From Aurantiochytrium sp. KH105 (lineage: Eukaryota > Sar > Bigyra > Thraustochytrida > Thraustochytriidae): a stretch of DNA of 64,000 nt. The stretch covers positions 62,001 through 126,000 of the forward strand of contig BGKB01000121.1 in the NCBI GenBank assembly GCA_003116975.1. Reading direction: 5' to 3'. The position numbers were made by a program, and so were the translations under genes. Of this stretch, positions 24,933 through 40,894 are shown piece after piece. The notes below the pieces were generated by a model. The model searched no databases, was not told the DNA's origin, and was given only the letters and a program-made list of their open reading frames with translations. Numbering within the stretch: position 1 is the first letter of the stretch; each line of letters begins with the position of its first letter.

Positions 24933-25915
24933 GGTGCCGTCGAGCGAGTCTTCGTGCCCGTGCTCGTGCGCGCTTCTTCAAGAGTCTGCTGCCTCTCGCG
25001 CCGCCTCGCCGCGCCTTGGGCCGCCCTCTCTTTGCCCCACTTGCGCCGCCCCGCTATAACCCACTTGCCGCCCCCGCCCCAAGTGCGCTATCGCCCCGCG
25101 CCCCACTTGCGCGCCGCGCCCTTTGCGCCCCCGCCACCACCGATTCGAAAGCGCCCCGCGTTCCCGGCGTTACCCGCGTTCCCAGGGCCAACGGGAGCTA
25201 GGGTTAGGGCTTGGCGCGGGGTCTGGTGGTCGGGGGTCGGGGTGGGGTCAGAGATACCGGAATGAGGGGCGGGGGGGGGGGATGTCGGCGAGGCGAGGCG
25301 AGGCGCAATGGGATGAGAGAGAGAGAGAGAGCAGAGTGTCTGATGGGAGAGACGAGCCGGAGAGGGGACAAAGGAGAAAGGAGAGAAAAAGGAGATCGTG
25401 GCAGTGTGCGCGACTGGTTTTCTTTTAACCTGTGTGACAACTTGTCTTGCTTGGCCTTGCTTGGCCTTGCTTTCTGCGTTTTGCCATAATTTGGCCATCC
25501 ATAGCTCTTCGCCATGGAAGATTTTTGCCATGCATGTTTTTTCGCCTCTATCCATGATTTTTTGCGATGCTTTTTGTCGAGCTCTTTCTAATAATAACTC
25601 ATGCTCTCGGCCACGATGCTTCTTGTCTTTGCTTCTTTCTTGTCTTGCTCCTTGCCCGGCCAGCCCATAGCGTTTCTTGTGTATAGTAGGCCTACCTGGC
25701 TAGAGAACTCAACTGTGACCGTGCGGAGTTCCACTTGCCTGGCCGGACGTGGCCTAGGCCTACTGTTTTACAGTCAGCTATAATAAAATGAAGTGACAAG
25801 CTGTCTCTCCGACTCAACACACAAGTGCTGGACCGCCTCGCTGAGGCGACTAGAATCGCGAGGCCGACCCCGGCAAGCCCGAACGCCGAGGCAGGGCGCA
25901 GCGACCCCGCGTGCC
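24933..25915. other. Divergent promoter region of RPS18 and the GT71 gene
   Basis: Just under 1 kb. The RPS18-proximal part is GC-rich with CACTTGCG elements. The middle has an AGGGTTAGGG pair near 25,200, a G run near 25,270 and a GA repeat near 25,318-25,332. The distal part is AT-richer with CTTGG repeats near 25,445-25,470. Two TAGGCCTA copies (25,687 and 25,755) lie 229 and 161 bases before the GT71 ATG. Confidence 0.5.
25038..25112. promoter_or_regulatory. CACTTGCG element cluster upstream of RPS18
   Basis: CACTTGCGC occurs at 25,038-25,046 and 25,104-25,112, CACTTGCCG at 25,062-25,070, and the reverse form CAAGTGCGC at 25,080-25,088. This is the same core as in the CHCHD promoter hairpin and upstream of the STK36-like gene. 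It is likely a promoter element; the core CACTTG is an E-box sequence. Confidence 0.5.
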
Positions 25916-27391
25916 ATGATGGCGCACATCGGCGTGAGCACACGGAAACAGACCTGGCTGGATGCCATCGGCCTGGGAGAAGAGTGCCCGCGAGGGCATC
26001 AGCGGCGCAAATATGCGTGCGTCTTTGGCGGCCTCTTCGTGCTCGTCTTCGGGCTCTGGGCTGTGCTGGGCAGGAGGGACAGCGCCAGCGAACTTCTCCG
26101 CTCGCAGCATCAAATTATTCACAGCTACTGCGATGGCGTGCCTTCCGGCGACCCTGTGGCCCCCCAAACCAGCGACAGCGACAATGCATACTTGGCCTGG
26201 CTCAAGCACCAGGATGCGCAGTACAAATCCAGCGTGTGCAACACGCAACCGCGCTTTGTAGAAAATCTCCGAGAACATGTTCCTTTTGAGCGGGACTTTA
26301 TTGAGATCAACATGCTTCAAACGCTCCCCAAGTTCGAGGAAGGGCCCTTTGAGGCTAATTCGCGAGGCTACGTCTTCACCACGCCACCCAAGCCAGAGAT
26401 GATGGACATGATTCTGCGTACGGTCAATGTCATCCTTGAGCTCGAACCTGAAGCTGGCATGGAGGTATGGTTCACCTATGATGATTATCCACGCGATCAT
26501 CCCCTGTGCAATGGCGAGCTCTTGCACGTAGATTGCAAAGTCTTTTACAGTGAGGAGACGGGCCTCACCCCGGACACATTGCCTCCCATTGGTTACGCAT
26601 TTTGCATCTATGCTATCGTTCTCAGCCGCTTTCAGCATGTCTTCTTTCTTGACCTCGATGCCGTGCCCATGGCGAGCACCAAGTACCTTTTCGATGAGCC
26701 AGCCTACAAGGAAACTGGCCAGCTCTTTTGGGCCGATCTCTGGGGTACAGATTCTCTTTTTGATGCTGGAATGACCGCGTGGACGGATAGCCAGCTATGG
26801 GGTTTTGTGCGTGTCAATCCGTACAACACTCGCGAGATGGAATCATCAATTCTGGTGATCGACAAGGCGCGCAATTGGAAGGAAGTGAATCTTGCTTTGC
26901 ACATGAGTCGCCACCAACAATTCATGTATCGCAAAGACACCAACGTAGGGCCTCGTGGCCAGCAACTCACTCTTCATGGAGACAAGGATGTCTGGCGTCT
27001 TGCCTTTCTCTACTTTCGCACGAAATTCCACATGGCCCATCCCGTCAGCTTGGGCCGCGTGTACGCTTTCTTGGCCTACCGTCGAAACAGCATCGGACAT
27101 ATTGGTCTCCGTGATACTGATCACGTTCTCTTTGTACACCAGCCAAAGGACATGGCGCTTCCCCGTGCCCCGTATCTGCGTGTCGCCCTCCTCGACACGC
27201 ACTGTAATGATCCGCATCGTGCTTTTTACCACATTGGCTTTTCCAACTACTGGCCTTGCTTGCAACCGTACGATTATCAGACAGGCCAGCTCCAACCGGA
27301 ATCCGTCCCGTCATGGCGCACACACAGCTGCGCATCTTCGGATCGTTCACGAATGATCACCTGCGATTCTGTCATCTTACGCACAACGTAA
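25916..27391 (+). CDS. Type II membrane mannosyltransferase, GT71 (MNN1-like)
   Basis: From the first of two adjacent ATG codons at 25,916 the product has 491 residues. A short cytoplasmic tail, rich in basic residues, precedes one membrane segment (CVFGGLFVLVFGLWAVL, about residues 35-55), as in Golgi type II enzymes. The luminal domain has GYVFTTPPKPEMMDMIL, then HVFFLDLDAVPM with the D-x-D nucleotide-sugar motif (DLD). LFDEPAYKETGQLFWADLW follows, matching the conserved block of MNN1/GT71 alpha-1,3-mannosyltransferases. QLWGF and SSILVIDK follow as usual. It probably transfers mannose from GDP-mannose to glycoprotein glycans; linkage is not readable from sequence. The same frame is open upstream but without an ATG. 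Confidence 0.82.
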   Translation: MMAHIGVSTRKQTWLDAIGLGEECPRGHQRRKYACVFGGLFVLVFGLWAVLGRRDSASELLRSQHQIIHSYCDGVPSGDPVAPQTSDSDNAYLAWLKHQDAQYKSSVCNTQPRFVENLREHVPFERDFIEINMLQTLPKFEEGPFEANSRGYVFTTPPKPEMMDMILRTVNVILELEPEAGMEVWFTYDDYPRDHPLCNGELLHVDCKVFYSEETGLTPDTLPPIGYAFCIYAIVLSRFQHVFFLDLDAVPMASTKYLFDEPAYKETGQLFWADLWGTDSLFDAGMTAWTDSQLWGFVRVNPYNTREMESSILVIDKARNWKEVNLALHMSRHQQFMYRKDTNVGPRGQQLTLHGDKDVWRLAFLYFRTKFHMAHPVSLGRVYAFLAYRRNSIGHIGLRDTDHVLFVHQPKDMALPRAPYLRVALLDTHCNDPHRAFYHIGFSNYWPCLQPYDYQTGQLQPESVPSWRTHSCASSDRSRMITCDSVILRTT

Positions 27392-27956
27392 TCATCCATT
27401 CAAAAAGAACGATTGAACCATGATAGGCCTAGCACTAGCCCCAGCACCATTAGTCTAAATAAGAAATGTGGATATACCCTTGAAGTAAGCTTCTATACAC
27501 CAAAATAAGAAACTCTCGACATTTTTCAAGAGGGAGCGTAAAACTCAACTCAAGAGCTCAAATCACTTTCTGGCTTTCACGTCAGCTGAGCGGCCCACAC
27601 GACGGCGCGGCGACTTTGAAATGATCTTATACTCTGCGTGACGCCTTGGCTGCTCCCTCTGCGATTATCGACGGCCCGGCCAGGTCACGGTGACCTTGAT
27701 CGACAATCCACCAAGTCTGGCGCCGGCCCAGGGTTCATAACACAGTCATCGCCGTTCCAACTTGGGACTCTCGTTCTGTTCTAGCCTCTACTGCCGGTAG
27801 TAGGCCTCGGCCTAGGCCTAGGCCTACCCCGAGTACAGCTTCCAGTTTGCGAGCGAGGGAATGGCGAAGCGAATCGAGGGATGAAGTGCGAAATGTCCAA
27901 GCGGGTCGAAAGCCAAAGCCAAGCGAGCTGCGTCCTTCACGAGAGAGCACTCTACG
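27392..27956. other. Intergenic promoter region of the actin-Roc-COR-TIR gene
   Basis: About 565 bases. TAGGCCTA is present at 27,424 and in overlapping form at 27,801-27,826 (two exact copies plus near copies), 130-156 bases before the ATG. A 15-bp palindrome AGGTCA-CGG-TGACCT lies at 27,682-27,696. No gene is seen. Confidence 0.5.
27801..27826. promoter_or_regulatory. TAGGCCTA cluster upstream of the actin-Roc-COR-TIR gene
   Basis: A 26-base run built from TAGGCCT and CCTAGG units with two exact TAGGCCTA copies, ending 131 bases before the start codon. It is the densest cluster of this motif in the window. Confidence 0.45.
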
Positions 27957-30900
27957 ATGGCAGAGGCCGAGGTCGTGACGAACGGGGACGACAGAGACGA
28001 GCCTGAGCACGAGGAGGAGGAGGAGGAGGAGACGTGGCCCGTGGTGGTCCACCTGTTTGAGGCAAAGGTGCAAGCCGGGTTTGCAGGATACGACGAACCT
28101 CAAGTCGTCTTTCCTCTTGTTGCATCCCTGACCGACGATGGCTTCGCTGTCGGCGATGCCGCAGCAGACGCAGCCGATCTCATCTGGCCTATTGAGAGAG
28201 GTATAGTCAATCACTGGGACGCGCTCGAGGCTGTCTTCGCTCAAATTTTCTCTGAGCTGATGATCAATCCAGAGAAACACAAGATTATCTTGGGCGAATT
28301 TGCCCCAGGGTCCAAGGAGCAACGCGAGCGTCTCATGACCATGCTCTTTCACTCTTTCGGGGTGCAAGGGATTGCATTCTTGCCAGTGTCGTCTCTCTTA
28401 TCCTCGGGGCGAGCCATTGGTGTCTTTGTCGACGTATCCTGGGACGTTACACAGATTATTCCAATGTCTGAAAGTGTGCCCATTCCCGGAGCCACAATTC
28501 GTGCAGAACTTGGAATGCGGGATGTTGTTCAAGCATTTCTGAATAATCTTAAAGCGCAAGACGGTATGCAGACTTGCCGTAACCTTTCGAAGCGATGATC
28601 CTTTTCGAGAAACTCGCTGATCGTCATGTTCTTCTTGGCGACCCTCTTTCCTGCAACGTGCTCCTCAAAGACTTGAGAGGGATCGGTGAAAATACTGTAT
28701 TGAACGAGTCATTGACTCTCTCGAGCGACGACCTGCAGCAAGCTGCTGCAACGCTCCTTACAGGTACCTCGACGGTCCCGGGGATTATGGACCTCATTCT
28801 GGAAGCCATCTCCAAACTTCCACTGGATGTTCGCGAGCTCTTGACCTCTAGCATCGTGCTCTCCGGGAGCGGCACGTTAGTGTCAGGGTTTGCGCAAGAA
28901 CTACAAGAGCGTCTAGCCAAGGCTGCGCCAAGTACTTTGCGAGTGAAAACCCTTGCAAATCCTGATCGTCTCTTCGCGTGGTGGGTATCTGGCTCGATTC
29001 TCGGATCTCTATCTGGCTTTGCCAACGAGTGTGTATCAAAGAATGACTTTGTACATGATCCAGCCATGGCTGCGTCTGGGACTAGCGTTCAGTGGCATTC
29101 GTTCCTCCTCTCCAGGCAGTACGTTGGCCATAGAGCTGTGGAGAGGCGCTTCATGCTGAGGCTTAGCCATCCCATTGCCACGATGAATGATCGATTCGCA
29201 GAAACTAACGAGGTGCCCAAGATGGAGGAAATATATGTTCGTCCTGATGTAGACGAGCTCCTCGAGTACCTTTTCCGCGTTGAACTTCAGGGTACGTCCA
29301 TCAAGGGGCCGCTGGTTCTGAGCACCGCGAATACGCATCCCGCTGCAATCTCGATGCTTATGCAGACTGCCTTCGCTCAGGGTTTCGACACGGTAACAAT
29401 GGTTGACGCCGCAAGCGCCGCTCTTGTCGCCTTAGGTCGGTCCACCGGACTCATTGTCGACGTCGGCCATCAATCAACTCGAATCACGCCCATCGTAGAC
29501 TCTACTGTCCTCGAAGCAGCACGCAAAATTGTCCCGTGGGGCGGTAGGAACGCTTCTGCTACGCTCCAAAAACTGCTTCGTACTCTTGATCACGGCGAGA
29601 GAGGTAGAGATGCTGCAAATGAGATCACTCTTGTCGACAACATCAAGGAAGAGGTTGGCTACGTACGCGCCGAAAGCAACGAGGAAGCTGATGTTGAAGT
29701 GATGTACGGGCTACCTGACAATCGCGGCATTGTGCTGCGTGAAGAACGATGGCGGATCTTTGAAGCTCTCTTTCAATCAAGCGAAGCGAGCGGATTCAAT
29801 CTTGATCTGTGGGTCCATAGAAATGGTCAACGATCTGGATCAGCGTCGAGAGCTTTACGCAAGCATCATTCTTGTCGGAGGAACTTCCATGTGCGAGGGT
29901 TTTTCGTCGCGACTTGAGACTCAGCTCCGCGCATGTGTTAATCATCAAGTGAACGTGATTGTTCCACCAGAACGAAGACATTTAGTCTGGCTCGGAGCGT
30001 CGATCCTCGCTGACTCCTCGACTTCATCACAAAGGTTTCACGCTCTTTCGTACAGTTGTGACAAAACTATCTTTGATGCGAGTGGGCCAGGGGACTGTGG
30101 CATGAAGCATCAAGAAGTCGTGATCAAGAGCTCGCCAGCGGCGGCAGTCGATCTCGGCTCGCACGTAATCAAAGTGGGCCAGGCGGGTGAAAAGACTCCA
30201 CGTCGAGAAGTGGCTTCCGTCGTCGGTCGTGAACGGAGTCCGTACTCTGCAGACTTCGAAGATCTGGTGAGATGGGCGACCGTATACCGCCAGGTAAGTG
30301 GCAGTGAGGTAAAGCAGTACCGTGCATTATATAATCTCGCATTGGACGGCGAGCTCTGTCCGCTCAATCGTAGTCGTCTCTTCCTAGTTGGGCAGAGCCA
30401 AGCGGGCAAATCGGCGCTATCGCGATCACTCCTCGGTGAATCTTTTGGAGAGCTACCACAAACTCTCGGTGTGGATATAGCAACAGTCACTGCCACAATT
30501 TCAGAAAAAGCGACCACATGGGAAGAGAAGGATTTGGCACACAGTGAGTTTGCCATCCATTCAGCACGTACCGTTGCTGCGGCAGCTGCAGGAACACGGT
30601 CCAAGCCTTCAGAGGGGTCAGCGTCTGCAGGACAAATGCGCAACCCCGAAAGCGCACGAGATCTTCAGGTATGCTCCTCTTTCTTGCCGCTTGAAGCTAT
30701 GGAAACGCTCCGTCGACCCGAAAGTATGGCAGGAGTGCCCTCGTCGCGGAGACGTGGTGTGGCAGACCTGGCTCGATCGCTTGCGCGAAACGTGTCAAGC
30801 CGGCTGTTCTCCACATTTCGTGGGGTGTTCCTCTTGGATCAAGACAGAATTCCTGTTGTTGATCCAGAGCCAATATCTCTTTCAGCAACGGAAGAAATCA

Positions 30901-33152
30901 TGAGCAAGCTGGACGATCAACTCGTGAAAAAGTTTGTACACGCCAAGGAAACGCTGGGACACGATCTCACACTCGCAATATCATCGTGGGAATTATGTGG
31001 ACAGCATGCCTTTTCCCCATTACAGCACATCCTGTTGAGTCGCAGTGCAGTATACTTGGTTGTCTTTGACATGCGCCACGTGCTTAGAATCGAAGACCGT
31101 CCCCAGGCGCTCGAAAATCTCCTCTACTGGCTTCAATGTATTGACTTTTCCACCTCGGGCGCTCGCGTGCTCCTTGTAGGGACGTATGGGGACCAAGTGC
31201 ATACATCTAATGAGCTAGCACTAATCGACTCGGTTTTGCGCACGGAGCTGAGACTGTCAGCCTATGCATCGACGTTTTTTCAAGAGTACGATCCAAAAGG
31301 TCTTTGCTTTTGTCCCGTGGACAACACACTGGATGACGAAGATGCAGGAGTACGATGGCTGCGAACTCTGGTAACGAGGATTAGCTTGATGAAACCGCAT
31401 GTTGCGCGCCCTATCCCCCTCGCGTGGTCCAGATTTTTTGACTTGCTAATCGAAAGAGGCGAAGAGCATCTAGCTCTCGAGGATGTCGAAGCGATTGCAG
31501 CTGAGGGCTGTAATATCTCGGACACGGAACAAGTGCAAGCCGCCCTGGCGCTATTCCACGAGCTTGGGATGCTCTTCTATTTTCGCGAGGTTGTTGGCCT
31601 TCGAGATTTCGTTGTGCTCGATCCTCAGTGGCTCATCCGCTGCTTTTCTATGGTGATACGTGACGTTGGTATGCACCCATATTGCTTGCCTGTGCGTAAA
31701 TTTCTTCAACATGCATGCCCGGAGGACGTTGTCCTTCTTCGCGTACAAGGCATTGCAACACGCAAGCTTCTCTACTCTTTGTGGGTGGACGAGGATCAAG
31801 ATTCTAATGATCAAGACTTTACGCGACGACGATTTCTCATTGCAATGCTAAGACACATGATGCTTGCCTGCTCGTTTGAGTCAGTCAACATGAAAATTCT
31901 TTATCCCTCCCAAACGTCCTCTTCGGACTGTCAACGAGCTTTTGTTCCTGCGGGTGGCGTCTTGCCCCAGCCAGATACGTTTCTAATTCCTTCGCTCCTA
32001 TGTCTGCAACGTCCGGGTGACAAGGACGTGGCGCAGCGGCTGCAACAAATCGAGGAGCACATGCCTTCGACAGCGTCGGGACAGGCATTAGTCTTCTACT
32101 TGACTGTCGAGGGGACTTTTTCTTTGCCCAAAGGTCTCTTTGAGCGTCTGGTCTGTCTGGCTGTGGAACACTCGCATGCTGCGGCCTTCTTGGGCGCCTC
32201 GCGGGCACCTTTGCCAGGACCAGGTGAAGTGCTCTTTTGGCTGGGCGAAGCCAGTTGCCGCATGACAGAGCAGGTCGAGGAAGGGCGCATTCGCTGCATT
32301 GTGGACGAGTCACGTGCGCAACTTGCATTTGTGGATGAACTCTTGTCAATGCTGGCTCGCCTCAACGAGGAAGTCATGCGCAATCAAGCAACCTTTGCTG
32401 CGCAGCTTCAAGTACCCGTGGGTCGCCTCGGCTCGGTTCAGGTGGACTACGATGAAGCCAAATATACTTGGTCCAAGAATCGCAAATACGCGCGCGGGTC
32501 CTGTCATCAGAAAGTCCCGCGAGCCTCTTTGGCAAGATGGATGAGTGCGCAAGACTTAGGCGATGTCTTTGATGCTTGGCGGGACGAGCTCCCAGGGTGT
32601 TTTGGTCTCTCGCGAGCACAGCACCAGAGCGATGTTGTCGGACATATAAGGACTGCAGCTAGCGTACCGCTGCCTTCCAAGGCGGACTCACACGTTTTCA
32701 TCAGCTATCGGCAGGCCAATGCAGGCGAAACCTGCACATATATCAGAGATATCCTTGAAGGTCTCGGGCTCGAGGTTTGTTTGCGCTCCAACACCGAGAA
32801 TGCACCCAGCACAGGCGGTGTGGTCGAAAATGTCCGCAATAGCATCGTACTTTTACTTTTGCTGTCTGACGGGGTTCTCCTCGAGTCATCAGTGCAAGAG
32901 GAAGTTCGCACCGCAATGGATTTCCGAATTCCGGTCATTGTGGCTCACGACGAGGAATCGGGCTACGAGTCGTTTCTGAAGATATACAATGCGAAAAGGC
33001 AGTCGCCTGAGGACTTGCGCGTACTCTTTGACGAGATCGAGTCTCTTCCTCTTCGACGTCGTCTTTTCGAGCGTCGTGCAATGGAGAGTGAGCTCTTTCG
33101 CCGCGTGCTCGTTGAAGTGAAGCGCCGCGTTTCCGGTGACGGTACCTTTTGA
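27957..33152 (+). CDS. Tandem actin-like / Roc-COR GTPase / TIR fusion protein
   Basis: Three overlapping frames (27,957-28,598; 28,595-29,917; 29,730-33,152) together encode one domain series. Actin-like module 1 starts VQAGFAGYDEP and contains WPIERGIVNHWD. Module 2 has LIVDVGHQSTRITPIVD, IILVGGTSMCEGF and PPERRHLVWLGASILA, and ends FDASGPGDCGMKHQ. Then comes only the start of a third actin (AAVDLGSHVIKVGQAGEK, about 30,138). The last frame continues with a Roc GTPase: P-loop GQSQAGKS, G3-like WELCGQ, G4-like VGTYGD, with a Ser-rich insertion before G3. COR follows (IPLAWSRFF, FHELGMLFYF, LRDFVVLDPQWL). A C-terminal TIR domain starts SHVFISYRQ (about 32,688), with Glu in VQEEVRTAM at the NADase position. 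The first frame change could be a small intron (GTATGC...AAG, 29 bases, or 107 bases to CAAAG). The second, near 29,800, lacks splice signals and may be an assembly error or real decay. It may be annotated elsewhere as two genes. Confidence 0.8.
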
Positions 33153-33225: not shown

Positions 33226-34449
33226 TTACTCAATTGTGTCGATCAGGATGGAACAAGCGTTTTCTTCTTCTTCCTCTTCAGCTTCTCCTTTTTCAAGATC
33301 TTTACGCAGGTGACTGTTTGATTTCTTGCGCATCCCCAAACCTCGCGAGACAAAGTGAGATCCGCGAGGTTCGATAGCAGACCTTGGGCGCACCCTTTTG
33401 GCGGCTGATGCGGGACGCGGTGGCACAGCTCTGGTTCTCGCAAACGTCCTTGACGTTTCTATTGCAGATGCAGGTCGCGCATACGTTGTACGCGAGTGAT
33501 GGATGGTTTTTCGGGGCTGGGTCTCATGAGCTGCGACACGGGATCGCCGATGTGATTTGGGTCGGCTCAATCGAGCGAAAATCGTTGTAAAAGCCTCTTC
33601 ACAATCCCTGCCGTTGTCTGGTCTTCGCGCAGGTGCTGTGCGAGGTCTTGTTTGTCGCCGTCTGTCGTGTTCCGCAGACCTTGCATTTGCAGTTTTTGGA
33701 CGCTGTCCATGGAGCGAGCGGGACTTCTCCACACCAAGGCCTCGGGTCTGCGTGGCTACAGAGACAGTATCATTGGCTTGTTGCTTACACTCTTGCAAAA
33801 ACGTTCGCTCAGAGGCTGCCTTCCATGCCGCAGCATCAGCAGCGAGAGCTTCCATCGTTTGCGCTTGCCGTTTGATTGTTCGCTCGTCGTCGAGCTTTTG
33901 TCGAGCATACTCGTCGAGCGCCTCGGTTGCCTTTGTGCGTGTGACTCGAAGCGAACGCTCCGCACGATCGCGCTTCTCACGTTCCATTTTCTCGGCTTGC
34001 GTTGAGGTAAACGCAGTCTTTGCGAGCTCATTCCGTTCAGCCTGCGCCTGGTCGTACTTGTGCAAAAAGACACCAGCTTGGTCAAGGTCATGTGCAAGTT
34101 TTGCATTTTCGCGCTCGAGAACAACGATTCGACCCTGCGCATCCAAAAGTCTGCTTCGATGACGAATCATAACTACCTCAACCGCGCGTCGCTTGATGAT
34201 AAAGCTTTGCTTTTCCCTCTGTGCGATAAGCAGCGCTTGTTCCAGGGCGGTCAAGAGCGCTTGCACACCGCCGGCAGCGACGAATTCATCATGAAAATCT
34301 GCAAATGTATGCAGCTTCTTTTGTTGGCCACGCACGATGTCGAGCTTTCGCTCAAGGCTCTCTGATGCATCACGCAAGACGCTGGCATCACCCTTTGGGT
34401 CAACCCCGAGGACACCGCGTAGTTCCTCGCTGCATGAATGTTGAAGCAT
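33226..34449 (-). CDS. Coiled-coil protein, unrecognised
   Basis: A 407-residue single-exon protein, convergent with the actin-Roc-COR-TIR gene (stops 74 bases apart) and divergent from the CCDC17-like gene. Residues about 20-230 are predicted coiled coil by heptad look (for example LERENAKLAHDLDQ and EKMEREKRDRAERSL). Residues 230-370 are Arg/Pro/Thr/Ala-rich and basic with several RP[KR]TA-like and ARPASA repeats, typical of microtubule-associated flagellar proteins. The tail is acidic (EAEEEEEEN). Head-to-head placement with a flagellar gene makes a ciliary role possible, but that is inference. No family name can be given. Confidence 0.65.
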   Translation of the reverse strand: MLQHSCSEELRGVLGVDPKGDASVLRDASESLERKLDIVRGQQKKLHTFADFHDEFVAAGGVQALLTALEQALLIAQREKQSFIIKRRAVEVVMIRHRSRLLDAQGRIVVLERENAKLAHDLDQAGVFLHKYDQAQAERNELAKTAFTSTQAEKMEREKRDRAERSLRVTRTKATEALDEYARQKLDDERTIKRQAQTMEALAADAAAWKAASERTFLQECKQQANDTVSVATQTRGLGVEKSRSLHGQRPKTANARSAEHDRRRQTRPRTAPARRPDNGRDCEEAFTTIFARLSRPKSHRRSRVAAHETQPRKTIHHSRTTYARPASAIETSRTFARTRAVPPRPASAAKRVRPRSAIEPRGSHFVSRGLGMRKKSNSHLRKDLEKGEAEEEEEENACSILIDTIE

Positions 34450-35113
34450 CGCAACGACGGAACCACTTTGGACGTTTGGGTAAATGCCACAGCACCTTTC
34501 CCAAAGCAGGATGGAGCGAAAAAAACGCGGCGCATACGCACGCGCCTACATTATTGACTTTGCCCCCGCAAAACAAAAGAGACAGGCAAAAGAGGCAAGT
34601 CGCTCGTTGGAAGACGAGCTCATGCAAAACATCTTCGTGACACCGTGCACGATACTAGACCGTAACGGCTAGCCAGTAAGTATTGCAGCGTGAAATACGT
34701 GCTATCGCTACCACTGCAAGAGGCAGGCAGATAGGCAGGCTGAGACAGCGAGTGTGACAAGCGGCAAGCCCATCTACCCACCCACTTACACACGCAAGCA
34801 CGCACGCACGTACGCACGCACGTACGCATGCAGTCAGGCAGGCAAGCAAGCAAGTAAGCAAGCACGCAAGCGAGCAAAGTAAGCAAGCACGCAAGCGAGC
34901 AAGCAAGCAAGCACTCAGACAGCTAAAACTTTCCTTATTGGGAGCCAAGGCCCCGACGGCCCATGGCGCGCAGCTGAGACTAATTTTGGGGGCGCACATT
35001 GTCCTAGACCGGTGAGGTTCTCGCCGCTGCTGCGTCTTGAAAACAAGCCATTGCACGCCGGCGCGAGCAACAAAGGCGCAAGCCCCAACTAGTCAGCCTC
35101 GAGGGAGACCCGA
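34450..35113. other. Divergent promoter between coiled-coil gene and CCDC17-like gene
   Basis: About 660 bases, of which 34,785-34,917 is a CAAG/CACG-type tetranucleotide repeat tract (listed separately). No gene is seen; frames through the repeat are Ala/Cys/Leu-biased shadows. Confidence 0.5.
34785..34917 (+). repeat. Degenerate GCAA/GCAC tetranucleotide repeat tract
   Basis: About 130 bases of GCAC, GTAC, GCAA and GCGA units. A longer direct repeat inside the tract (about 24 bases, GTAAGCAAGCAC and on) occurs twice near 34,855 and 34,880. It lies in the middle of a divergent promoter region. Confidence 0.8.
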
Positions 35114-38100
35114 ATGAGCGAGCCCAAAGAAGGCCTCTCCTTTGCAAATGTAGAAAGCTATGTTCGAGACGCCATCGGTTCGAACGCGCGAGCAAAGAGC
35201 CCAAAAGAAGACTATGTAGGCGGCCTGAACCTCACCCAGCTTCGCGAGCAGCTCACAGCAGCTGCTGCAGATCGAAAAGCCGATGTCTCAGCTACAGATT
35301 CCTTGCTGGATCTGGTTAAACAGAAACGCGAGCGGGAAAAACTGGAAGAGCTCCGTCAGGTCAAAATTCGACATCAAGAGCTTCGTGCGCGCAAACGCCA
35401 AGAATCAACAGAGATCTCCAAAGTCATGATGGAACTTGAAAAACGTAAGCAGCAGGAACTTGAGCTTCGTCTGCAAAAGGAACGTATTCAGCAGGGGCTG
35501 GAGCACGTGGATCGCACCCATCTTGGACAGCTGGAGGCAGAAAAGCGCAAAGAGCTAGAGTCTCTAACCAAGGAACGCCAATCCCTCCAAGACAAGGAAG
35601 AGGCCATCTTGCGGCAAGTCGAGGAGCTCGAGCAAAAGATAATTGAGCAAGAAGAGCTCAACGCAAAACGCAAGCAAGAGGTTGAAGACGCACTCGTGCG
35701 CAGGAAAGGCTCGCGTCTCGAGCACAAAAATGCCGAGCTTTTGCGCCTTGCGGCTGCCCACGGACAACGTACGTCTACACTCCTCGTAGAGCGAAACGAA
35801 CTTGAAAAGGAGCGGCAGCGCCTTCAAGACCAACTTGAAGAGCTTGCGGGCGACAAGGGGGCAGCGACGTTGCGTGAAGAAGGTGAAGAGCTTGATGCCT
35901 TTGTAGATGCTGTGCAAAATCGAATTTCGGAGCAGCAGGAGCGTGTGGCCCTGATGCGCATCGAGCACGAACGAGCACAAAAGGACTGGGTCGTGTCAAA
36001 AATTGCTGACGAAAGTGACACAAAGAGGCTTCGACCTGAAGGCCTCGACAATTCGCTTCCATTTACGGTGCAAGCAGAATCATTTCTGAATGAGTGGCTC
36101 AACGAAGATCCGAACCGCGCCCCGGCACTCGGCCAGGCGCGCGCCACGCTTGATGATGCCGTCGCTGACAACTCCGTGCACCGTCATCACCGGGCCTCTG
36201 ATATCAAAGGTCAATCCTCACCTGCCGCTTTGCCACACCCAGAGGTACACTTTGATTCTGCTGTGAATGTGGAAAGCGGAGAAGCCTCACTGGCGCACAA
36301 AGCGCGGCACACAAAGAGACATCGAGGCCGTCAGACCAAGACGTGGAACGAGTCACGGAGCAGATCAGCCCTCAAGAGCACATCGGAGACCTCGGAAGAG
36401 CTGACACCCGAGGCGCGCCGTCAACTCGAAGAAGAGGTGGACGTTCTCAAAGAGGAATATGCGAATCTGGGCATGGCTAGCCCCAGCCTTTGGCACCAGA
36501 TTCAGTTACTCGAGAAGCAGCTTGGATATCGCCCATCAAAACGGCCGCCGATTCGTATTCAAGTGCCAGCGCAACCAGCTGCTCCTTGGGCAGGCCCACA
36601 CACGTACCCGTCTCCAACTTCGCAGGCGGGGCTCGCCAGTCCTATGGTCGAATATCAGATCGAAAAGCAGCAGCGCATGCTCGATCGCCAGGCCAAAACC
36701 TTGCGCAAGATTGAACTGAAGCAGGAGAAAGCCAAAATCAAAGCTGACCTCGAAGAGCGCACGCGTGGCCGTCGATACGGGAGACGAGGAGATCCTTCTT
36801 CAAGACGCGACCGAAAAAGTTCGCGTCGCCATCGCCGCCACCGGTCTGGCGCCTCACAGTCATTGAGCACGTCGTCCGACTCTTCGTCGTCGTCACATAT
36901 CTCATCGGCGTCGTCTTCTGACCAAGACTCATCGTCCCTGTCGAGTACCTCACAGCATCGGTCGCGACGTCATCATCCACGACGAAGAGAACGTCGTCCT
37001 CGTCGTGATCGAGGCGTTCCGAATTGGCACGATAACGGGCAGTCTGTTTTAGATGAGGTCACCTTGGGTCCGGGAAGCGGCTTTCAGCAACAGCAACAGC
37101 AGCAAGTTGCTGGCGAAATGGTGCAGCTCGAACAGCAGCAGCGAGTCTTTACGCGCACCATGGAGTCGCTGACGCGCAAACTTCAGGCCCTCGGCGGGGC
37201 CGATCCCCTGCCTGGTGCAATGTTTGGGGCCACAGCTTCGACAGGACAACGCGGTGGCGATGGTGAAAAGAATAAACTTCTTGAAGAGCTCAGTACACTT
37301 GATATGATCCCGCGTGATTCGGAATTATACGATATTCAAGTCGAGCATCTCAAGATGATTACCCGTATGCGGATTGAAATGGAGGAGCTTCAGCAACAGC
37401 AGCGAGTGAGTGCCATGAAGGGAAATCTTGAGCGCGAGCAGCGAGAACTCGAAAAGAAAGCGGAATTTGAAGAGCGCAAACTGGACCAGGAACGCGAGCT
37501 CGAACTCGCCAAACTGCGCAGAGCACTCGCGCGTGAAAATGTGGACATGAATTGGAATGGACACAGCGGGCCAAGTGGCAAGTCCTACGACGCGCAAGCT
37601 GGATTTGCTTGCTACTTCGATTATGCAACAGGAATTCCCAAGCGTTTCCACATGGTGAGAGTTGTCTACTGTATATATGAAGACGAGACCGTGCGGTCGA
37701 GCGTCAAGGCTCTTTCAGCATGCGAGACCGAAGCTGACACGGCGACACGAAGCACAGCTGTCTTTGCAACGCGGAAAAAGTTCGCGCGGATTCCTGCTGT
37801 AGAGACCTTGCGCGTGGTCATGGAACTTCAGTGCGTGCAGGACGGCCCACAAGGGCGAGCGTACCAGAGCATTGGTTGGACCGTGCTCAGTCTTTTCCAG
37901 AACGGACGACCTGGAAGCGAAAGTCTGTGTCTAAACGAGGGCCCACATCAGCTCCGCTTCCATCGCCCCCCCTTCAAGGTGACAGATATTGCAGGAGCCA
38001 TCCAGCCCGGTGCCGATCCTGATGATGGCGCCGCGGGTGAGCCAATGCATTTGTTTTTACGCATGGTTCACATGGCGGATATAGACGTCTCTATGGATTT

Positions 38101-40894
38101 TGTGATTGACCCGTGCGTGACGCAGCACCTCTACAAGCGCTGGCCACCACGAAAGGAGACGAAAAAGGGCTCGAGTTCGCGGCGCAAGGAAAAGTCGACC
38201 TCGAGGCGCAAGGGGAACAAGTCGAGGCACTCTGCAAAACATGGCGACGACGGTGCCTCGGAACTGGGCTCCGTTGCGGACCGGTCTATCGTTTCAGCAG
38301 ATTCGGCTGGCGCACAGACGTTGACAAGTTCTGCTTCGCGGCGTAAAAAGTCCACATCCCTGAAGTTGAAAAAGAAGCGTCGCGTAAATCTGCAGCTTGA
38401 CCACGTCGCGTTCGCTCGCGAGAGTCCCGCGCATATGATTTTTGTTCGTGTTATTGCTCTTGGTGACGCATCATGTGTCAACGCGGCTGTCCGAGCAGAA
38501 GCGGAGGCACTCAAAGCTTTTCCCAGCACGAGTGCAGTCATTGACTACTCTGGACTTCCAGGAAATGCACGCGTCTGGGAATCTGAAGCTCGCGACATTC
38601 GTGTCAGCACGGGTCAAGTCTCGTGGACGCGAGCATACACAAATCCGACATTCTTTGACTCGATCAACATTGACGCCCAGGGGGTATTACTTGTCAAAAT
38701 TTTTGAGCGCCTGCCCGAAGGACTGGACGATTCGAGCGAAAATGCGGAGGCCGACGTGGCAGATGGCAGCGAAGCAAGCGCTTCGATGGTTAACAAAAGC
38801 CTCGATGGCGCGAGCGTGAGACTTGTAGGCTGGGCCGTAAAACCTTTGCTCAATGAGGAAGGGCGCGTTGAGAGCGGATCAGCTCCAATAGCTTTGGACC
38901 TGCTTCAACCTCCCGTTGTTGTCCCGGTCGACGATGGGCGCGCCGAGTCTCTTGATGCGCGCATCATTTTCTCCATGACAAAAACACCAAGTAGCAGCAG
39001 CAGCGTCGTGAGCGCTGCTTCATCCTCTGCAAGTCGACGAAATGGACGACGACGGCGAAGGTCGGTGGCGAGTATTGCCTCAATTGCCGAGGAAGACGAA
39101 GACGATATGATGAGCAGCGAGGAAGAAGATGACTTTGACGACGATGAAGCTGACGCAAGTGGAAGGAAGCGGCACGATGGCTCGAGCGTTGGCGATTCCA
39201 GGCGCAAGCGGTCTCCGCATGCCAAAGAAGACCCAGAGCCCGCTGTGGATGACCATGCGCCTTTTGTGGAGAACAAAGTCAAGCTTTCGCGCAATCCGCC
39301 TCTCTTTGAGCGGGGTGAGGATGGTTTTGACGTCTATATTGATGGGGCTCGTTGTCTTCCAGACTATGCGACGATTTCTGCGGTGCACGTGAAGCTGCTG
39401 GCTCCAAATTATGAGCTTATTGGCGAGGAGCACCGAGCCCATGCATCTTTGGGTGACAGTGCATACAACCCGAAATATAGGCTGCGAGCGGAGTTTCGGG
39501 GCGAAGCCGTTGCAAATCCGGCGGGAACTCTGCTCTTTCGCATCGACACGGTCGACCGTTTCACCAAGGCAACCAAGGCCATTGGGTACACGTGTCTAAA
39601 TCCCTTTTGCATGCCAAATGGCACTGATGAGCAGGCCTCCAAGTCAACGACGCAAGAGTACGCCTTGCTGCGTGGAAGCTTTCAGTTGCCCTTGTATCAG
39701 GAGCGACCTGACACCACGCAGACATTCTCCTCCAAGCTGTTTGAGAGCTCGCATCGCGTTCCCTGCGCAACCTTGCTCGTGCGCATCCTGCCAGCGAAGA
39801 AGAGCAAGGACAATGTGCACATTTTGCGTCTCGATGAATTTCCGCACGACGAATGGGAGCGGAGAGGTCTTGTAGTTTCAGCGCCACGCTACGGCCCGCG
39901 TGCTGGCTATGACACGAGCCGTTGCGAGCCGCTATCCTGTGAGCAAAAATTGTACGCGGTGCTGGCGGACCGCGAAGAGGTTCTGGTTGGAGAAATGGTA
40001 ACCCTTGCGCGACGACCGGGTGTCGCCGAAGACAAGCACGTCGATGTGATGGAGGACAAAGAATTGCAAGATTGGGTCGTTAAGAGGCTGAGCCAGCCTC
40101 AGGGCATGATGCCGCTCGACCATGCAGCACAGTATCAGCCAGAGACAGGGTTTGCGGTTGCCATCGAGGGCCTTACGGGTCTGCGCTCTCGTGATGTCGG
40201 CAAGAACAAACTGCACAAGGTAATCTTTTCCTTGAACCCGCCTGGCGCGTACTACGGCGATCCCCGACTCACTGACGTCGTAGCCTTTACAACGACGCAT
40301 GACTTTGATGCAGCAGTCGGGGCGCCGCGTTTTCTTGATGAGCTGCACGTGTTTCGAGACGTCCCTTACGACCCCAAGATGGTGTTGATTGTAGACGTGC
40401 GAACGGTTCGGACCGATCGGATGGATCAAGAGGTTTTTGCGTGGGCCATTGTTCCCATCTTTAGTCGCCACGGGCCGTACACGTGCAATGGGCGTCTTCA
40501 CGCGCCTCTATTCGAAGGCGGTGTGCAGGTCGATGTGCTCGCTGACTTGCAGAGCTCCGATCTCGATCCAGAGACCTTTATCTTGAACGAGATGAATAAG
40601 GGAAAACTCGCGCGATTGAAGCTTTCTAAAGCTCAGGCTTCGGTTGTCGTGCGCTTGGTGGACAGTCTTGTGCGTGACTGCATGCAATTTGATTCGACGC
40701 GGGAATGTGGCATGCCGGAAAAACTCGTTTCCAAGTTTGTGACGCAACTCGCGGCGAGTGAAGGTCCCGTGAAGAAGGGCAGCACGCTTGGGGCAGTTAT
40801 TCCCAAGACACATCGGCAGCAGCCCGAGGCTTTTGAGCGCGTTATTAACGAAGAGTTCGCCAAGCTCACCGGTATTAGCAATTACACATTTTGA
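35114..40894 (+). CDS. Large CCDC17-like coiled-coil protein with several C2-like modules
   Basis: A 1,926-residue single-exon protein. Residues about 60-310 are long coiled coil. A helical hairpin near 440-480 (LKEEYANLGMASPSLWHQIQ) resembles the human CCDC17 segment ALREAYIRDGG...VLGQIWQL. A Ser/Arg/His-rich linker and a second coiled coil (about 650-810) follow. Then comes the CCDC17 core (from about residue 825): AGFACYFDYATGIPK, VVMELQCVQ, and HLFLRMVHMADIDVS with the terminal HLYKRWPP. Three further beta-rich modules repeat this plan (near 38,390, 39,300 and 40,130 in DNA), each with a line like WAVKPLL, GYTCLNPF or WAIVPIFSRHG. CCDC17 is a poorly characterised protein linked to cilia. 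Human CCDC17 is about 620 residues, so this one is three times longer through added modules. Confidence 0.7.
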   Translation: MSEPKEGLSFANVESYVRDAIGSNARAKSPKEDYVGGLNLTQLREQLTAAAADRKADVSATDSLLDLVKQKREREKLEELRQVKIRHQELRARKRQESTEISKVMMELEKRKQQELELRLQKERIQQGLEHVDRTHLGQLEAEKRKELESLTKERQSLQDKEEAILRQVEELEQKIIEQEELNAKRKQEVEDALVRRKGSRLEHKNAELLRLAAAHGQRTSTLLVERNELEKERQRLQDQLEELAGDKGAATLREEGEELDAFVDAVQNRISEQQERVALMRIEHERAQKDWVVSKIADESDTKRLRPEGLDNSLPFTVQAESFLNEWLNEDPNRAPALGQARATLDDAVADNSVHRHHRASDIKGQSSPAALPHPEVHFDSAVNVESGEASLAHKARHTKRHRGRQTKTWNESRSRSALKSTSETSEELTPEARRQLEEEVDVLKEEYANLGMASPSLWHQIQLLEKQLGYRPSKRPPIRIQVPAQPAAPWAGPHTYPSPTSQAGLASPMVEYQIEKQQRMLDRQAKTLRKIELKQEKAKIKADLEERTRGRRYGRRGDPSSRRDRKSSRRHRRHRSGASQSLSTSSDSSSSSHISSASSSDQDSSSLSSTSQHRSRRHHPRRRERRPRRDRGVPNWHDNGQSVLDEVTLGPGSGFQQQQQQQVAGEMVQLEQQQRVFTRTMESLTRKLQALGGADPLPGAMFGATASTGQRGGDGEKNKLLEELSTLDMIPRDSELYDIQVEHLKMITRMRIEMEELQQQQRVSAMKGNLEREQRELEKKAEFEERKLDQERELELAKLRRALARENVDMNWNGHSGPSGKSYDAQAGFACYFDYATGIPKRFHMVRVVYCIYEDETVRSSVKALSACETEADTATRSTAVFATRKKFARIPAVETLRVVMELQCVQDGPQGRAYQSIGWTVLSLFQNGRPGSESLCLNEGPHQLRFHRPPFKVTDIAGAIQPGADPDDGAAGEPMHLFLRMVHMADIDVSMDFVIDPCVTQHLYKRWPPRKETKKGSSSRRKEKSTSRRKGNKSRHSAKHGDDGASELGSVADRSIVSADSAGAQTLTSSASRRKKSTSLKLKKKRRVNLQLDHVAFARESPAHMIFVRVIALGDASCVNAAVRAEAEALKAFPSTSAVIDYSGLPGNARVWESEARDIRVSTGQVSWTRAYTNPTFFDSINIDAQGVLLVKIFERLPEGLDDSSENAEADVADGSEASASMVNKSLDGASVRLVGWAVKPLLNEEGRVESGSAPIALDLLQPPVVVPVDDGRAESLDARIIFSMTKTPSSSSSVVSAASSSASRRNGRRRRRSVASIASIAEEDEDDMMSSEEEDDFDDDEADASGRKRHDGSSVGDSRRKRSPHAKEDPEPAVDDHAPFVENKVKLSRNPPLFERGEDGFDVYIDGARCLPDYATISAVHVKLLAPNYELIGEEHRAHASLGDSAYNPKYRLRAEFRGEAVANPAGTLLFRIDTVDRFTKATKAIGYTCLNPFCMPNGTDEQASKSTTQEYALLRGSFQLPLYQERPDTTQTFSSKLFESSHRVPCATLLVRILPAKKSKDNVHILRLDEFPHDEWERRGLVVSAPRYGPRAGYDTSRCEPLSCEQKLYAVLADREEVLVGEMVTLARRPGVAEDKHVDVMEDKELQDWVVKRLSQPQGMMPLDHAAQYQPETGFAVAIEGLTGLRSRDVGKNKLHKVIFSLNPPGAYYGDPRLTDVVAFTTTHDFDAAVGAPRFLDELHVFRDVPYDPKMVLIVDVRTVRTDRMDQEVFAWAIVPIFSRHGPYTCNGRLHAPLFEGGVQVDVLADLQSSDLDPETFILNEMNKGKLARLKLSKAQASVVVRLVDSLVRDCMQFDSTRECGMPEKLVSKFVTQLAASEGPVKKGSTLGAVIPKTHRQQPEAFERVINEEFAKLTGISNYTF

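Follow-up and report, generated by a model that had tools for sequence, protein, structure and literature searches.

The analysed window is a stretch of 64,000 nucleotides from Aurantiochytrium sp. KH105 (contig BGKB01000121.1, here C121; C121:62001-126000), part of an assembly of 76 Mb in 367 contigs. It carries a gene on the forward strand whose product joins two actin modules to a Roc-COR GTPase and a TIR domain. We read this protein as an NLR-like intracellular Roc-COR-TIR receptor, in which the two actin modules, as a mimic of actin, would fill the N-terminal sensor slot that is occupied by WD40 in the long paralogues of the same genome; judged from sequence comparison, we give this reading a probability of about 0.5. 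From the N-terminus, the protein contains one acidic stretch, actin module 1, actin module 2, one piece of an actin N-terminus, Roc, COR and TIR. The coordinates of all parts are listed in Table 1.

The window copy of the gene is split between frames: positions 27885-28598 and 29703-33152 share one frame, and 28583-29917 lie in another, a point absent from the first-pass annotation, which had proposed one fused protein. The frames are split because the window copy carries one 1-nucleotide and one 8-nucleotide deletion relative to the copy on contig C20; it also differs by 3 nucleotides, in frame, within the acidic N-terminus. On C20 the gene (L009:3429-8636) runs without interruption in a single frame that opens with ATG, ends in a stop and counts 1735 codons; its product, P0001, has 1735 residues. 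The two loci are 96.65% identical over 6.6 kb, a stretch that takes in the 3′ flank, and the upstream gene is 96.5% identical; as near-identical pairs on two contigs occur at many loci, the assembly probably resembles that of a diploid. Between the two copies, dS is 0.072, dN is 0.021 and the ratio of nonsynonymous to synonymous change (dN/dS) is 0.287 over 1730 codons, five gapped codons having been dropped. By part, dN/dS is 0.24 for actin module 1, 0.21 for module 2, 0.34 for the tail piece behind it (from two changes of each kind), 0.29 for Roc, 0.33 for COR and 0.19 for TIR; only the COR-TIR linker, with 0.83, is outside the range of 0.19-0.34. The single C20 frame and the dN/dS of 0.287 therefore establish that the fusion is a real single protein maintained under constraint, and an artefact of adjacent gene predictions is ruled out by that frame. 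The window copy is either broken or misassembled, and an assembly error may account for the deletions.

The composition that had been proposed, actin with ROCO and TIR, was recovered by Pfam and by the expected motifs. In the C20 copy, Actin is found at 283 bits in four stretches, and Roc (36.9 bits) and COR-A (47.8 bits) are both above their cut-offs and stand in tandem, as in ROCO proteins; of the modules named beforehand only TIR_2 stays below the threshold. The three window frames contain the same Pfam domains piecewise.

Actin module 1 is full length by sequence and colinear with actin. A hidden Markov model (HMM), which was built from 12 actin-family proteins of the same genome, scores it at 153.3 bits over profile positions 3-197 and 274-365, and within the whole protein at 142.2 bits as a single stretch, 4-366. 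Residue states were taken from the alignment to the genome's own actin; for the numbering and the residue roles we assume those of rabbit actin. The P1 loop of module 1 is lost and K213 and E214 are deleted, with D154, T160 and G301 kept. Of the ten nucleotide-site residues tabulated, module 1 retains two (D154 and G301), and the nucleotide-binding set as a whole is not conserved in it. Its D-loop lacks 11 columns, and 3-4 columns are missing from the hydrophobic plug of either module. By these features module 1 is a degenerate actin. A recent internal duplication was considered as a possible source of both modules; the resemblance between the two is weak (23%, E 5e-5), and a 16-row tree places them apart, on long branches and with weak support. 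Joint alignments of both modules spread single actins across the two.

Actin module 2 follows a linker and starts at the position that corresponds to actin residue 53 (QYVGHRA vs DAYVGDEA). Behind its C-terminus lies the tail piece, which corresponds to actin residues about 4-42 and is followed by a short linker and Roc. This piece had been described as the first strand-loop of a third actin. The strand-loop is real: Pfam Actin matches it at 24.6 bits over positions 4-39 (E 1.2e-5; the whole-protein cut-off is 27), and Actin is the sole Pfam family at E ≤ 1 in the stretch. Most simply, however, it would be the relocated N-terminus of module 2 and not part of a third module, and module 2 plus tail would form a circularly permuted actin whose opening lies in the D-loop.

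This was examined with the same HMM. The module 2 body alone scores 145.6 bits; with the tail moved in front it reaches 172.7 bits as one domain, whereas with the tail left behind the body the score is 163.8 bits in two domains. The best of 2000 shuffled tails placed in front of the body gives 156.1 bits, and the best of 301 other 54-residue windows gives 148.2 bits. The tail alone scores 23.0 bits; 1222 of the 2000 shuffled tails scored alone, the best at 5.9 bits. With a shorter tail cut the values are 162.3 bits with the tail and 145.4 bits for the body. Pfam, as an independent model, gives 132.5 bits over positions 75-389 for the body and 158.8 bits over positions 4-389, in one stretch, for the rotated sequence. 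Module 2 plus tail keeps D11, G13, S14, K18, D154, G156, T160, G182, K213, E214, G301 and G302; most nucleotide-site residues survive only here. The hydrolysis residues Q137 and H161 are not kept, being S137 and R161. Protease-cut actin structures are on record by title (3ue5 and 2q31), with cuts that lie in the D-loop; a backbone break in the D-loop is therefore tolerable.

Two results limit the permutation reading, which is drawn from sequence. Placed before module 1 stripped of its own N-terminus, the tail lifts the score from 135.5 to 151.0 bits (153.3 bits with the native N-terminus); the HMM gain thus identifies the tail as an actin N-terminus and is silent on which module it would fold into. 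In addition, AlphaFold left the tail of module 2 plus tail unplaced, with a pLDDT of 21-31. The mean pLDDT of that model is 47.6 and the undisputed actin sequence before the tail is equally poor; in the input the tail was covered solely by the window copy, plus four stray residues of one row. In the same model the module 2 body still matches actins by Foldseek. Both results would suit a tail that remains as a vestige of a third, lost actin module and stays outside the fold of module 2, and such a vestige is an expected intermediate, as permutation usually proceeds by tandem duplication and then deletion. We consider the vestige unlikely, however: the tail provides the very part that is missing from module 2 (it covers actin about 4-42, and module 2 starts at about 53), module 1 has an N-terminus of its own, and the tail has kept the nucleotide loop, which module 1 has lost. 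It concerns the permutation only and is compatible with any model of the sensor. The tail was assigned to module 2 because module 2 alone is without this part, and because of the residue pattern; an independent third actin module would be less economical than the permutation.

The Roc-COR region contains an intact P-loop, GQSQAGKS, and the COR-block motif quoted beforehand, LRDFVVLDPQWL, is found in the sequence. The family profile matches 4wnr, 3dpu (which we take to be the C. tepidum Roco) and LRRK2, and by Foldseek the Roc-COR-TIR model (mean pLDDT 60.7) matches LRRK1 and M. barkeri Roco2. TIR-only stretches match the TIR domains of the paralogues with E down to 3e-17, and the aligned family profile matches the tir-1/SARM1 NAD+ hydrolases (best E 1.2e-7). 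In the model, the order of strands and helices is as in TIR; its Foldseek matches there, SARM1, RPP1, RUN1 and TLR1, have E values of 3e-4 to 1e-2 and are weaker than those of Roc-COR. As the first-pass annotation had pointed out, a Glu occupies the position of the NAD+ hydrolase (NADase) residue. This Glu, of TIR helix C, aligns with the SARM1 Glu, which we take to be catalytic, and it is invariant in all 14 aligned rows (the two copies of the gene and 12 of 21 paralogue loci). By these matches the region has a TIR fold, and NADase activity is predicted. The Pfam scan of the C20 copy gives no NB-ARC or NACHT, and Roc-COR instead; for this reason the protein is NLR-like in its working and is not an NLR.

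The gene belongs to a large family in the same genome. With both haplotypes taken together there are 124 COR-A matches, eight of them under the cut-off, and for at least 91 of the 124 a scored TIR_2 follows on the same strand, no more than 2.5 kb downstream, the best 150 of 258 TIR_2 candidates having been scored; both copies of the actin gene are among the 33 without one. Among the best 27 of 232 candidates in the search with P0001, the actin part is matched on C20 and C121 only, and all other matches start at residue 784 or beyond. Likewise, the 40 actin matches and the 124 COR-A matches come within 30 kb of each other solely on C20 (2.2 kb) and C121 (1.6 kb); the next closest pair is 30.5 kb apart. 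The WD40-Roc-COR-TIR and Roc-COR-TIR paralogues (L020-L029 and L034-L044) share the core order and the invariant TIR Glu with the actin gene, and the core identity is 24-28% for the 12 of 21 loci that were aligned. Different from the actin gene, their N-terminus is WD40 or short.

In 11 long paralogues (L034-L044), a WD40 propeller is N-terminal to Roc (alignment of all 11; Pfam on L038); two of these rows were trimmed at the start, and some resemble allele pairs, e.g. L035/L040. Their mean pairwise dN/dS is 1.05 in WD40, 0.33 in Roc, 0.18 in COR and 0.14 in TIR, and dS is 0.116 in WD40 and 0.39-0.66 in the three other domains. Columns with at least five different residues make up 29 of 284 in WD40 and 9 of 780 elsewhere (Fisher p 1.1e-10). 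Among the hypervariable sites, 47 pairs have a spacing of 38-44, against a maximum of 35 in 20000 random scatters, in which sites were scattered singly and clustering was ignored. The sites recur across blades at {a, a+1, a+3} and {a+17, a+19}, a pattern that is sharpest in the later ones. The low dS suggests that the propeller evolves in concert, as has been reported of the fungal HNWD proteins. It is mainly this hypervariable WD40 pattern that leads us to take the family for immune or non-self receptors, and the Roc-COR-TIR set of the genome looks like an NLR-like immune repertoire. The earlier assignment of the protein to an immune or cell-death type is supported by this family context together with the TIR profile match to SARM1-type NAD+ hydrolases.

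Other proteins with TIR or actin were also seen in this genome. L014 and L017 are ankyrin-TIR proteins (Pfam on L014), and L010 and L012 carry a second type of TIR, preceded by a long N-terminus that Pfam leaves unmatched (scan of L010). L057 (C36) and L058 (C17) each encode a CH-SAM-actin fusion in one open frame (Pfam CH, SAM_1 and Actin on L057). L008, L045, L046 and L047 (C2 and C194) are clustered actins with frames reaching far upstream, of 654-967 residues. A PfaA-like frame of a PUFA synthase on C72 and C155 scores 930 bits, under the model's cut-off of 1010; it agrees with a thraustochytrid source, although 11 of 14 control genomes also give sub-threshold matches in this search.

Outside the gene, module 2 is most similar to the actin encoded by the same genome (35%), so that, in sequence, it resembles a candidate host target, as the decoy of an integrated-decoy receptor would. 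In the mechanism that we propose, the two actin modules would act as a mimic, an integrated decoy or bait, of the cell's actin. Actin-directed molecules, most likely parasite effectors or toxins, would bind or modify the modules, and the actin pair, stabilised by nucleotide, would change. The change in module 2 may be passed on mechanically through the relocated strand that adjoins Roc, so that this actin N-terminal strand would release the Roc-COR dimer switch. The TIR domains would then be gathered, NAD+ would be consumed, and the infected cell would be killed or arrested. In its fullest version, which we hold tentatively and as more doubtful than the receptor reading itself, a permuted actin that binds ATP and neither hydrolyses it nor polymerises would, together with a dead actin partner, form an immune sensor that baits actin-directed attack and fires a TIR NADase gated by Roc-COR; the Roc-COR-TIR proteins with hypervariable WD40 would then make up a large immune repertoire with an evolutionary origin separate from that of the NLRs.

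Further points weigh against the receptor reading. The actin modules are under purifying selection, in the two copies compared, unlike the diversifying WD40 sensors. The gene is a deeply divergent lone branch, with a length of 3.34 in a 23-row tree that carries a long-branch warning; because of this divergence, the statement that actin replaced WD40 is a positional one and describes no demonstrated event. The window copy is broken by its two deletions. In Roc, the G3 motif has Glu in place of the Asp of the paralogue motif WDY(A/G)GQ. TIR_2 alone scores 20.5 bits, under the Pfam cut-off of 28, and the TIR is without the Trp and the Asp that the WD40 paralogues carry past strand B.

The closest rival to the decoy is a sensor of the cytoskeleton state. 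The actin pair would bind actin-binding proteins of the cell itself (profilin, cofilin, capping proteins), or else sense adenine nucleotide, and would report actin collapse or energy stress to Roc-COR-TIR, with no parasite molecule involved. Purifying selection on both actin modules would suit conserved partners of the cell itself, and module 2 plus tail keeps most of the ATP-contact residues. However, the hypervariable sensors of the family suit foreign or polymorphic ligands; we regard this sensor as rather unlikely. It is improbable that the gene is dying, a decaying receptor relic whose fusion has no present function. The frame-breaking deletions in the window and the divergent Roc G3 and TIR motifs would fit decay, whereas the C20 copy is intact across all 1735 codons and dN/dS stays within 0.19-0.34 in the actin modules, the tail, Roc, COR and TIR, the COR-TIR linker (0.83) alone standing high. 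Least probable is an oligomerisation head, in which the TIR domains would be clustered by actin modules that polymerise or add to F-actin: filaments are common among actin folds and TIR NADases require clustering, but polymerisation is unlikely because both modules have an altered D-loop (shortened in module 1, open in module 2) and an altered plug, and the P1 loop of module 1 is lost, which weakens the earlier suggestion of polymerisation through actin contacts and led us to reject a filament-forming head as the preferred explanation.

With SARM1/tir-1 and AbTIR, the protein that we read as a decoy receptor has the TIR profile match and the catalytic Glu in common; the scaffolds of those proteins are ARM-SAM or bacterial. 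The nearest parallel to the WD40 paralogues is the fungal HNWD family (HET-NACHT-WD40), whose hypervariable WD40 sensors are, in the excerpts of two papers, under diversifying selection at similar sites (PMC12222747, PMC4986451). It has NACHT and HET where Roc-COR and TIR stand here, and the reverse domain order. In Podospora HNWD, the repeat positions with high dN/dS are 10, 11, 12, 14, 30, 32 and 39, as excerpted from PMC12222747; positions 11, 12 and 14 have the spacing of {a, a+1, a+3}, and 30 and 32 have the same inner spacing as {a+17, a+19}, shifted by two. Plant NLRs that carry integrated domains (NLR-IDs) join an immune receptor to a copy of a probable host target, as proposed here, according to one review (PMC9528084); the scaffold there is NB-ARC/LRR, unlike Roc-COR. 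The word "actin" is absent from the main text of that review (PMC9528084). The Chondrus crispus TPR-ROCO-TIR protein combines ROCO and TIR as here, with TPR and not actin, and the brown algal LRR-ROCOs have LRR in place of actin; the same paper proposes ROCOs as immune receptors and, for unicellular species of SAR, counts no more than four ROCOs (PMC11378527).

In the open-licence literature of PubMed Central (PMC), we found no report of Roc-COR, TIR and actin-like domains together, and none that combines "circularly permuted" with "actin fold". By titles and the starts of abstracts among the papers listed from the same collection, no such fusion and no thraustochytrid ROCO-TIR genes appeared, and the fusion goes unmentioned in the excerpts of PMC7159879 and PMC8195603. 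Scans based on short peptide patterns, which are weak negatives, gave no relatives: 49 pattern matches in viral contigs with P0001, 46 in viral contigs with the family alignment, and 40 in genome contigs with the family alignment.

Table 1. Parts of the actin-actin-Roc-COR-TIR gene, as positions in the window
Feature	Position	Strand	P0001 residues	Remarks
Whole gene, window copy with two small deletions	27957..33152	+		Intact counterpart L009:3429-8636 = P0001
Acidic N-terminus	27957..28031	+	1-26	
Actin module 1	28032..29068	+	27-372	Pfam, HMM, residue table
1-nucleotide deletion	28588 (near)	+		Relative to C20 copy; frame changes
Actin module 2 body	29120..30122	+	about 390-726	Actin residue ~53 to actin C-terminus
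8-nucleotide deletion	29805 (near)	+		Relative to C20 copy; frame restored
Actin N-terminal strand-loop, putatively relocated	30123..30278	+	about 727-778	D11/G13/S14/K18 loop
Roc GTPase	30321..31415	+	about 793-1157	Insert of ~140 residues
Roc P-loop	30390-30413	+		GQSQAGKS
Roc G3	30987-31004	+		WELCGQ
COR-A	31416..31883	+	1158-1313	
TIR domain	32673..33149	+	about 1577-1735	
Glu codon	32901..32903	+	E1653	Aligned with SARM1-type catalytic Glu

Around the gene, the upstream neighbour at 25787-27391 (+) encodes a putative mannosyltransferase (PF11051, 59 bits); the long frames at 33226-34545 (-) and 35093-40894 (+) gave no match in Pfam. Directly upstream of its copy, C20 has about 1.2 kb of extra DNA including an N run (L009:1990-3298, against about 27726-27826 in the window), and the likely promoter region differs between the two copies.

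If the decoy reading is true, the protein would, within the searches made, be the first with a naturally occurring circular permutant of actin and the first in which actin serves as the sensor of a TIR receptor, and it would link attack on the cytoskeleton to loss of NAD+ in a protist. The family around it would be a GTPase-based receptor repertoire outside the NLRs, with hypervariable propellers, in a group of organisms where one study, in its excerpted text, counted few ROCOs (PMC11378527). The NLR-like immunity of unicellular eukaryotes would then become a directly testable question.

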